Assembly: GCA_030604405.1 (NCBI GenBank)
Contig: JAUVVY010000012.1
Coordinates: 1 to 64,000, forward strand
Source of the DNA: a bacterium
GTDB taxonomy: Bacteria > Armatimonadota > Zipacnadia > Zipacnadales > UBA11051
DNA: 64,000 nt
Reading direction: 5' to 3'
Under the pieces are notes generated by a model. The model had not been told where the DNA came from. It was given only the letters and a program-made list of their open reading frames with translations, and did no database searches. The position numbers and the translations under genes are program-made. Positions 8,664 through 56,130 of this stretch are shown here, piece after piece (the stretch's first letter is position 1; every line of letters begins with the position of its first letter).

Positions 8664-8727
8664 CTGTGGTGACTCGCCAGGAGCCGACTTCATTGCATGC
8701 TTGCCGGGGCGAAGTGCCAAAGCCGCT

Positions 8728-8879
8728 TATTCACGAACGCGTAGCTCGGCCTGACCTGCGCTTGGCGCAGGGCAGGTGAGAACGCGAGGGGTACCTGCGC
8801 CAGAGGCGTGGGTCAGCGTTCTCAGCTTCCCGTTCGACAGGCTCACGGCCCTGAGCAACGTCGAAGGGCAGCCCGAGGC
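8728..8879 (+). repeat. repeat A, copy 1: composite palindrome carrying two nested repeats
   Basis: The backbone is the same as at 17826-17903 (inverted) and 55997-56080. It has ACGCGTAGCTCGGCCTGACC, an inner palindrome around CTGCGC..GCGCAG, GAGAACGCGA, GCGTTCTCAGCTTC and CAGCCCGAGG. In the two simple copies GAGAAcGCGA and its complement are separated by a few bases. Here that loop holds a family-B palindrome (about 8788-8815), and the junction CAGCTTC/CAGCCCGAGG holds a 39-bp family-C element (8830-8868). The whole 372-base gap 8572-8943 shows no gene; the open frame across it is repeat read-through joined to ackA. Confidence 0.85.
8830..8868 (+). repeat. 39-bp repeat C, copy 1, inserted in repeat A
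   Basis: The element begins CCGTTCGACAGG and ends GCAACGTCGAAGGG. It is an imperfect palindrome: CCGTTCGAC pairs with GTCGAAGGG, and GCTCA with TGAGC. Removing exactly these 39 bases restores the uninterrupted repeat A seen at 56062-56078 and, inverted, at 17828-17844. Other copies are at 32679-32717 and 39301-39337 (inverted). Confidence 0.88.
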
Positions 8880-8943
8880 TTCTCTTAACCGCTTTACGAA
8901 TAATCCGTGCCGGAGCGCTTGCAAAAACAGGGGATTGAAGACA

Positions 8944-17690: not shown

Positions 17691-17825
17691 CTGAATACCT
17701 CCTGCGAAAGCTCGTTAATGAAGCATCTTTCGCCAAGATTATCATCTTCACCTGTGGCCTACTCGCCTGCATTATTCTTGAGTGAAATGGAATAGCTAGC
17801 AGAATTGGACAGTAATCACCCCAAC

Positions 17826-17903
17826 GACCTCGGGCTGGAAGCTGAGAATGCTATCGCATTCTCACCTGACCTGCGCTTAGCGCAGGTCAGGCCGAGCTAC
17901 GCG
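17826..17903 (-). repeat. repeat A, copy 2 (uninterrupted)
   Basis: The reverse complement reads GCGTAGCTCGGCCTGACC, the CTGCGC/GCGCAG palindrome, GAGAATGCGATAGCATTCTC and AGCTTCCAGCCCGAGGTC. It lacks both insertions found in copy 1, so it serves as an empty site. Its edge abuts the stop codon of the GT2 gene that ends at 17904. The rest of 17691-17825 shows nothing clear. Confidence 0.85.
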
Positions 17904-18773
17904 CTAGTGGATGTGGCCGGCTAGAGCCGCAGCCGCCAGCCGCGCATACAGGCTTACGTGCAATGTAGTCACAACGGCGGCATAAACCAGCGGGCAGAGC
18001 TTGACGCGATAGTGCTTGCGGTAGTAGTTGATCATGCTGCGGTGAGACTCGCGGATCATCTGCCGGCGCACCTGCCTGGTGGATGCGCCTCCCTCGTGGG
18101 TCATCTCCGCTTGGGGCGTGAACCAGATCTCCCAGCCCGCGTCCCACAGCCGCCGGCACAGGTCCACATCATTAAAGAATATCGGCAAATCCTCGTCAAA
18201 GGTTCCGATTTGCGCCAGCGCCTCCTGCCTTAGCATCAGCGCCGAGGCCATCGGCTGATCCACGCTGCGGGCGTCGTCATAGCCCCACCAGCTCATGCGG
18301 TACTTCCCGAAGCGTTTGCTCCTCGGAAAAAGCCGGCTGAGGCCGAGCGCTTCATAGAATATGACATCCGGGTCCGGGAAGCTGCGGCAGGAAAGTTGCA
18401 CTGAGCCGTCCTTGTGCCGCAAGCGCGGTGCGACGGCTGCGGCTGCAGGGCGCTCATCGAGGAAGCCGGCCAGCGTCTCGACCGAGCCGGGCTTTATCAC
18501 TATGTCGGGATTCAGCAGTAGGCGATATTTACCGCTCGCCTCGCGCAGTGCCAGGTTGTTGCCCGCTGCATAGCCGGTGTTCTCATCCAGCGCGAACAGC
18601 CGCACCTCCGGATATTCTTCCCTGACCATCTCCGCGCTGCCGTCGGCCGAGGCGTTGTCAACCACCAGCACCTCAGCATCGAGCTGACTGGCATGATCCT
18701 GCAGGCTGCGCAGACACGCACGCAGATGATCGGCGGTGTTCCAGTTGACTATGCAGACCGAAACGTCGGGCAT
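17904..18773 (-). CDS. family 2 glycosyltransferase
   Basis: 289 residues with SVCIVNWNTADHLRACL, EVLVVDNASADGSAEMV, NTGYAAGNNLAL, RLLLNPDIVIKPGS, ADVDLCRR-type FFNDVDLCRRLWDAGW and MTHEGGASTRQVRR. It is the same GT2 subgroup as the gene at 16507-17439 but clearly diverged, so the two probably add different sugars to one envelope glycan. The C-terminal hydrophobic helix (LVYAAVVTTLHVSLYARLAAAALAG) may anchor it. The stop codon coincides with the edge of a dispersed repeat, so the last residues may be repeat-derived. The KdsC-like gene ends 12 bases upstream. Confidence 0.88.
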   Translation of the reverse strand: MPDVSVCIVNWNTADHLRACLRSLQDHASQLDAEVLVVDNASADGSAEMVREEYPEVRLFALDENTGYAAGNNLALREASGKYRLLLNPDIVIKPGSVETLAGFLDERPAAAAVAPRLRHKDGSVQLSCRSFPDPDVIFYEALGLSRLFPRSKRFGKYRMSWWGYDDARSVDQPMASALMLRQEALAQIGTFDEDLPIFFNDVDLCRRLWDAGWEIWFTPQAEMTHEGGASTRQVRRQMIRESHRSMINYYRKHYRVKLCPLVYAAVVTTLHVSLYARLAAAALAGHIH

Positions 18774-26663: not shown

Positions 26664-26700
26664 CGCGTGGGACAGGCTTTCCAGCCTGTCAATGCCGTTC
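26664..26700. repeat. repeat E copy 1 (uninterrupted)
   Basis: GACAGGCT (26671-26678) pairs with AGCCTGTC (26683-26690) across TTCC. The reverse complement GCATTGACAGGCTGGAAAGC plus CTGTCCCACGC matches the flanks of the 39-bp element at 32679-32717. It lies between the radical SAM start and the YfhO stop and just enters the YfhO 3' end. Confidence 0.8.
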
Positions 26701-32663: not shown

Positions 32664-32733
32664 AGCATTGACAGGCTGCGGTTCGGCAGGCTCACCGCCC
32701 TGAGCAACGTCGAAGGGGAAAGCCTGTCCTGCG
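32664..32733. repeat. repeat E copy 2, interrupted by repeat C
   Basis: GCATTGACAGGCTG (to 32678) and GAAAGCCTGTCC (from 32718) are the two halves of the palindrome found intact at 26664-26700. They are separated by exactly 39 bases. The remainder of 32535-32739 shows no gene. Confidence 0.85.
32679..32717 (+). repeat. 39-bp repeat C, copy 2, inserted in repeat E
   Basis: It begins CGGTTCGGCAGG and ends GCAACGTCGAAGGG. It has the same length as copy 1 and differs at about three positions. It sits in the loop of the GACAGGCT/AGCCTGTC palindrome. Confidence 0.88.
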
Positions 32734-32739
32734 CTAATA

Positions 32740-39283: not shown

Positions 39284-39946
39284 TCAGTCCTCCTCCTGTG
39301 CTTCGACGTTGCTCAGCACCGTGAGCTTGTCGAACGGCAGCCTCGCCTGAAGCTGCCGCCATTGGGTCCTGTTCAGCCGACATCTTTCGGCTTCGAGGAT
39401 TGCCTCAAGCTGCGTCACCGCGTCATCCAGATCGTCGTTCACCACAATGTATTCAAACATGCCTATATGCTTGAACTCTTTGCGGGCGCTGTCCAAGCGT
39501 CTGGCCGTCGCATCTTCCGACTCGGTGCTGCGCCCCTGTAGGCGTCGGACTAATTCCTCCCACGACGGCGGTGCGATAAATACCAACGCCGCCCGGCCGC
39601 CCATGAGCTGCCGAACACTACGCGCGCCCTGGTAGTCTATCTCCAGGGTGATATCCGTCCCGGACGCAAGCGCCGCTTCGACCGGCCCGCGTGGGGTCCC
39701 GTACCAGAGGTCCTGGTGCACCCGGGCGTATTCCAACAACTCGCCCGCCGCGATCATTCGCCTGAATTCCTGTAGGCTCACAAAGCGATATTCCCGGCCG
39801 TCCTGCTCACCGGGTCGTGGCTGCCGCGTCGTGCACGACACCGATCTGGCAACTTCGGAATGCCGGGCCAGCACGCGCTCGATCACGGTGCCTTTGCCCA
39901 CACCCGAAGGCCCTGATACGACCAGCAATACTCCGCTCTTACGCAC
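39284..39946 (-). CDS. gmk: guanylate kinase with repeat-derived C terminus
   Basis: 220 residues from GTG 39946, with AGGAGAAAGGG upstream. Walker A is SGPSGVGKGT; SCTTRQPRPGEQDGREY binds GMP; the lid has LQGRSTESEDATARRL. It phosphorylates GMP to GDP. The usual protein ends soon after the ILEAERCRL-type helix. Here the final residues LPFDKLTVLSNVEAQEED are encoded by the 39-bp repeat C (39301-39337 on this strand) plus a few codons. The repeat has thus supplied a new C terminus and stop without hitting the catalytic core. The coaBC ribosome site lies over the last codons. Confidence 0.95.
   Translation of the reverse strand: MRKSGVLLVVSGPSGVGKGTVIERVLARHSEVARSVSCTTRQPRPGEQDGREYRFVSLQEFRRMIAAGELLEYARVHQDLWYGTPRGPVEAALASGTDITLEIDYQGARSVRQLMGGRAALVFIAPPSWEELVRRLQGRSTESEDATARRLDSARKEFKHIGMFEYIVVNDDLDDAVTQLEAILEAERCRLNRTQWRQLQARLPFDKLTVLSNVEAQEED
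39301..39337 (-). repeat. repeat C, copy 3, within the gmk 3' end
   Basis: The reverse complement begins CCGTTCGACAAGC and ends GCAACGTCGAAG. Thirty-seven bases align with copies 1 and 2, with the final GG replaced by CA. As in copy 2 the left flank reads AGGCTG. Confidence 0.85.
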
Positions 39947-55863: not shown

Positions 55864-55996
55864 GCCAACTCCCTCCAAGTTCCCAGAGTCCTGTGCAATT
55901 ATGCACAATGACGAATCGGCAATGGCGATATTTCGTAGTATTGCCGTGAAATCCTGGCCTCACTCCGGCAATCAACTAGCCTGAATAATTCACAAA

Positions 55997-56080
55997 ACGC
56001 GTGGCTCGGCCTGACCTGTGCTAAGCGCAGGTCAGGTGAGAACGCGACTTATCGCGTTCTCAGCTTCCAGCCCGAGGTCC
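55997..56080 (+). repeat. repeat A, copy 3 (uninterrupted)
   Basis: ACGCGTGGCTCGGCCTGACC, the CTGTGC/GCGCAG palindrome, GAGAACGCGA-CTTA-TCGCGTTCTC and AGCTTCCAGCCCGAGGTCC. It has neither nested insertion. The upstream AATAATTCAC also resembles the flank of copy 1. The 403-base gap 55864-56266 contains only this and repeats B and D. Confidence 0.87.
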
Positions 56081-56130
56081 TTGGCTGTGTGTTGCCATGT
56101 GCAGGCGCAGACAAAGCCACCCTCTCAAGA

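Follow-up and report, generated by a model that had tools for sequence, protein, structure and literature searches.

Gain and loss of a 39-bp palindromic element at the apex of tagged REPs in a Candidatus Zipacnadia (Armatimonadota) genome

IS200/IS605 enzymes recognise hairpins at the ends of their own element. TnpA-REP (RAYT) proteins cut and join single-stranded REP DNA; they cut beside REPs, outside the stem-loop and mainly at C|T, which is the cleavage site in E. coli and S. maltophilia, and the Marinomonas protein cuts CT and CA with the GTAG tag, and CC after a change of the tag (PMC8266576). The superfamily of GTAG-tagged REPs was defined by Di Nocera et al. 2013 (PMC3733652). According to the available part of that paper, long self-complementary REP loops, as in Bradyrhizobium GTAG-14, and REPs inserted in palindromes, as in T. 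roseum (GTAG-23), A. variabilis and H. neapolitanus, are already known; a clean loop insertion proven by orthologous empty sites is not described in that part.

We analysed a window of 64,000 nucleotides, the whole stretch of DNA under study, in which a palindrome (E) occurs both intact and split by a 39-bp element (C). Among named relatives, a Candidatus Zipacnadia bacterium (Armatimonadota) is the closest to the window locus, with 91.5% DNA identity. The features are listed by coordinates, strand, description and basis.

8736-8878, plus strand: composite nested palindrome with outer REP arms CTCGG/CCGAG, inner palindromes and C (sequence; comparison with the sister species G001).
8830-8868, plus strand: second of the C copies in the window; its host is a composite D-type REP, and the junction is GCTTC^CAG (sequence, copy alignment).
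17821-17912, minus strand: D-type composite without C, its GCTTCCAGCCCGAG apex intact (sequence).
26664-26690, plus strand: intact GTGG-tagged REP with tag CGCGTGG (26664-26670), stem GACAGGC, loop TTTCCA and stem GCCTGTC (sequence).
32670-32678, plus strand: left arm GACAGGCTG of the split E-type REP (sequence; uninterrupted orthologous hairpin in G001).
32679-32717, plus strand: the 39 bp of element C, which consists of two mini-hairpin modules in head-to-head arrangement (sequence, copy alignment, G001 empty site).
32718-32728, plus strand: right arm GAAAGCCTGTC of the split REP (sequence).
32729-32735, minus strand: degenerate REP tag AGCGCAG, canonical CGCGTRG (compared with other REP tags).
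39299-39337, minus strand: third C copy, in frame, 13 codons (PFDKLTVLSNVEA), near the C-terminal end of the guanylate kinase ORF 39284-39946 (congener comparison).
55996-56084, plus strand: D-type composite without C (sequence).

Palindrome E, which hosts C, belongs to the GTAG/GTGG-tagged REPs, and hundreds of its relatives occur in this Candidatus Zipacnadia genome. In E-type REPs the tag, CGCGTAG or CGCGTGG (the latter in intact E), directly abuts the stem; the stems vary with compensation (GTCGGGC, GTCAGGC, CACAGGC, CTCGGGC, GCCAGGC, GACAGGC), and the loop is TTTCCA or TTCCA. Matches to GGCTGGAAAGCC with at most two mismatches number 629 in the genome versus 227 for the reversed control, and YACGCG, which is complementary to the tag, comes next in most of the close ones. 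Within a 429-kb sample the full stem pairs at 17 of the 32 exact apex sites. A scan for tag plus stem returned 38 REP-like structures against 15-18 in controls; its long-loop entries lacking REP stems were discarded as chance. E resembles the GTAG superfamily of PMC3733652 in tag, 7-8 bp stem, compensatory variants, short loop, high copy number and RAYT neighbour. Unlike the REPs described there, its loop is the site of gain and loss of a defined 39-bp palindrome.

The initial annotation held that the halves of E are parted by 39 bases of C and nothing else, and this was confirmed. Positions 32670-32728 read GACAGGCTG, CGGTTCGGCAGGCTCACCGCCCTGAGCAACGTCGAAGGG (39 nt, 32679-32717) and GAAAGCCTGTC, with no other change, and joining GACAGGCTG to GAAAGCCTGTC gives back the palindrome that occurs unbroken on the minus strand at 26671-26690. 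At the orthologous intergenic site of the sister species (G001) the hairpin is unbroken, without the 39 bp, between closely matching flanks. This empty site, together with the presence of C at some 50 places in the genome, indicates that the split is not due to chance. The outgroups G002-G004 have not retained the intergenic region at 32.67 kb; therefore, gain or loss at 32670 is not polarisable with them. The two split hairpins had been taken as unrelated, which does not hold: E, like the repeat split at 8830-8868, is REP-type, and the two have the same apex, GCTT(T)C^CAG (the caret marks the junction).

Our analysis revealed that C is a non-autonomous 39-bp palindromic element made of two inverted copies of one mini-hairpin (CGGTTCGRCARGCTCACCG or CCGTTCGRCARGCTCACGG, then CCCTGAGCAACGTCGAAGGG). 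The mini-hairpin loop is conserved (TTCGACNNGCTCA or TTCGACNNNGCTCA), and its 3-base stems covary freely (CCC/GGG, CCG/CGG, CGG/CCG, TGC/GCA); they are paired in 28 of 37 matches in the 429-kb sample, for which the reversed sequence gave 4 matches in all. As an inverted doublet of two short hairpins, C resembles a miniature REPIN. Of the two properties of a REPIN, which consists of two tagged inverted REPs, it shows the inverted arrangement and lacks the tags, no GTAG tag being present in any aligned copy. In contrast to REPINs and BIMEs, its units are untagged, measure about 19-20 bp and lie inside other REPs. The folding energy of C alone as DNA was not unusual (z about 0), so its stability is not the explanation. 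Rfam gave no match anywhere in the window, and the mini-hairpin sequence was not found in the literature searched.

To describe where C lies, we gathered 49 distinct full-length copies from this genome (G000) and G001 without conditioning on their flanks. The REP apex GCTT(T)C^CAG (complement GGCTG^GAA) is the site of 43 copies; five are nested in C-type sequence after a TTCGA or TTTGA stretch, and the remaining one is in guanylate kinase (GGCTG^CAGG). Nearly all 49 have CTG at the left or CAG at the right, and both orientations of C relative to the REP tag are found. The outcome named in the initial annotation as contrary, most copies lying in non-palindromic DNA, thus did not occur. In 25 D-type hosts, about half of the copies, further palindromes break up the REP arm itself, and as a result no more than 2-3 bp of the flanks pair. 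This short pairing and the guanylate-kinase copy outside any REP suggest a role for a sequence motif, either alongside a hairpin or in its place; the junction sequence does not vary, whereas an intact hairpin is not always evident. The proposal of hairpin or loop targeting is borne out only in part; the concentration of C at REP apices, the exact 39-bp presence/absence and a RAYT next to E-type REPs agree with it, and the weakly paired D-type flanks and the guanylate-kinase copy do not.

The sister species provided the before and after states. Many loci are common to G000 and G001, at 83-95% identity, and their alignments contain eight sites of C presence/absence, four filled in each species. 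Inserts of 39 bp are present in G000 and absent from G001 at 32670, L004, L016 and L028, and the reverse holds at L079, L084 and L090. In all seven of these clean events, once the insert is taken out, the joined flanks and the orthologue agree across the junction at 88-98% identity; target duplication is absent and the junction is fixed. The eighth event is a 63-bp insert in the G001 orthologue of intact E, between the equivalents of 26681 and 26682; it consists of C with a 24-bp palindrome nested inside and uses the same junction. That 24-bp palindrome is itself present/absent at L086/L164, and palindromes are nested to at least three levels. C is common to both species at L018/L098 and L022/L122. 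Five of the eight polymorphic sites are D-type, and the other three, 32670, 26671 and L084, are short REPs of E type surrounded by unique DNA. These results demonstrate that gain and loss of C directed to the REP apex is real. The 429-kb sample contains 2,104 GGCTG sites, about 205 of them outside long ORFs (by a crude mask), 49 of which are REP apices; if any non-coding GGCTG were equal (a pentamer-only model), the location of all eight polymorphic sites at REP apices would have p about 1e-5, a value that is conservative if anything, since the 429-kb stretches were picked partly around repeats.

Other kinds of difference were observed between the two species. At L013/L102, L022/L122 and L090/L166, one REP-type hairpin carries different inner palindromes in each species, that is, loop contents are exchanged in kind. 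At L021/L114, a filled REP with mismatched 5' and 3' arms, a chimera broken at the apex, corresponds to a matched empty REP in the sister. Some whole composites of 100-200 bp are found in just one of the two species: the window region 8722-8916, missing from the G001 orthologue, and L007, L008, L020, L025 and L089. Some of these present/absent composites lie between direct repeats of about 5 to 35 bp, which suggests a second kind of gain and loss.

Rickettsia palindromic elements are small palindromes inserted in frame in coding sequence, and C resembles them in being in frame in guanylate kinase and apparently in another gene in genomes of family f3. C differs from those elements in its main target, the REP apex. 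The guanylate-kinase copy is common to G000 and G001 and missing from three more distant congeners (G002-G004); thus, it represents a gain. The f3 copies seem to be in frame in another protein-coding sequence (L057, L058 and L045, in G037 and G036), at the same site in two genera.

The only Y1 transposase gene of the genome encodes a RAYT (G000:C2:14111-14515), which scores over the cut-off of NCBIfam NF047646 (REP-associated tyrosine transposase). Two E-type REPs lie immediately upstream, and together they constitute a REPtron. The gene is followed downstream by about 30-bp units (GGCGCGGTACAAGCCCGCGCCCTACAACA; L031 1940-2123) repeated in tandem. In the alignment the protein keeps the HUH motif, as HVH, and its putative catalytic Y135 is aligned with the tyrosine of E. 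coli TnpA-REP (4er8) that we take to be the catalytic Y115. Y115 of the E. coli protein is named in PMC8266576. RAYT genes are present in 33 of the 41 genomes of the order; because they are nearly everywhere, their co-occurrence with the C module across these genomes is uninformative.

We propose RAYT-catalysed single-strand insertion as the likeliest mechanism, with belief and doubt in about equal measure; it is favoured because the events are clean, without target duplication and at a fixed junction, in a genome with a resident REPtron. The REP hairpin would be exposed as single-stranded DNA, and the RAYT would cut and join strands at the apex, where C would be inserted. C is gained cleanly, without target duplication, at one fixed apical-loop junction of GTAG/GTGG-tagged REPs. 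On the REP strand the junctions read GCTTTC^CAGCC and GCTTC^CAGCC, with GTTCTC^CAACC in another family, so that the junction is TC^CA; its register is ambiguous by one base, being C|C or C|A on the REP strand and CT|G or CTG| on the opposite one. Repeated use of the apex site and half-exchanges there may produce the nested and chimeric REPs. By analogy, the CA and CC cutting of the Marinomonas protein may be loosely compatible with RAYT action at this junction. More broadly, and tentatively, tiny untagged palindromic doublets may specifically target the apical loop of RAYT-linked REPs and, mobilised in trans in single-stranded form, build up matryoshka palindromes; this is a possibility that we hold with slightly more doubt than confidence.

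The proposal shares with IS200/IS605 and TnpA-REP single-strand transposition the presence of an HUH/Y1 enzyme, the lack of target duplication and a constant junction. It differs in the hairpin-loop target, in both orientations of C and in a REP-strand junction at C|C or C|A rather than the usual C|T. The initial annotation described insertion into hairpin loops as known for Y1 transposition, but it is not an established property of these enzymes. Several observations stand against RAYT action: C has no GTAG tag, known TnpA-REP proteins cut outside the stem-loop and mostly at C|T, D-type flanks form no long hairpin, and at L021/L114 the 5' arm changed too, for which recombination is simpler. 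The two orientations are also hard to reconcile with a strictly strand-specific transposon, unless the near-palindrome can serve with either of its strands.

The main rival is template switching between REPs, in which a fork stalled at a REP hairpin would reach another REP via short arm homology, copy its loop content and return, making a transposase unnecessary. It would explain why loop contents differ in kind at the same REP and why arm and loop changed together at L021/L114, and chimeric-arm REPs also exist without C. However, both arms are unchanged up to the junction in most clean events; at 32670, the GACAGGC arms occur in no other filled copy listed and the homology is about 6-8 bp per side; and the insertion in guanylate kinase, where REP arms are lacking, is unexplained. 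We consider template switching unlikely, although it deserves serious weight. Homologous gene conversion between long D-type composites, carrying C as a passenger, draws on the tens of bases that these composites have in common on either side of the site and on the D-type character of five polymorphic sites, but the homology is too short at the three E-type sites in unique DNA, and we regard it as improbable.

The opposite direction of change was also considered, namely that the ancestral state is the long, C-containing hairpin, from which precise loss of the tip yields the short REP. Hairpin tips can be lost during replication, and most polymorphic sites have no assigned direction, the intergenic ones not being polarisable with the genomes compared. 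In contrast, the apex at empty sites is that of a canonical REP, even though no more than a 1-nt repeat bounds the C insert, filled REPs are far rarer than empty ones, and guanylate kinase shows gain; precise loss thus has little probability. C is small, palindromic and repeated like an ordinary MITE inserted by a DDE transposase, but every clean event has a fixed junction and no target duplication, and we rejected this highly improbable origin on the absence of the duplication. RAYT-catalysed insertion remains our preferred reading.

A defined palindrome gained and lost at a REP apex with orthologous empty sites, and nested to three levels, was not found in the literature searched. The sister species give clean before and after states with a defined insert, a defined junction and a resident RAYT, so that joint tests of junction, substrate and enzyme are possible and the unsolved question of how REP-type repeats move becomes directly testable. 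The stepwise growth of long nested palindromes in a genome is also illustrated. If doublets do target apices, REP apices would be hot spots of site-specific recombination across the order.

Our study also covered another family of the order. In G030 and G038, a related C (CGGTTCGGCAGGCTCACCGCCCTGAGCAAAGCCGAAGGG) lies at the apex of a GTAG-tagged REP, CGCGTAG-GCGAGGTT-CTC^C-AACCTCGC, whose stem is unrelated to that of E and whose junction is CTC^CAACC. Empty copies of this GCGAGGTT/AACCTCGC REP are abundant in both genomes, and the reversed control gave no match. The common denominator of C sites across families is a REP loop with TC^CA. Separately, a composite in a genome of another family (G026:C207:5818-5877) is almost identical to one of this genome, which may reflect horizontal transfer or MAG contamination.
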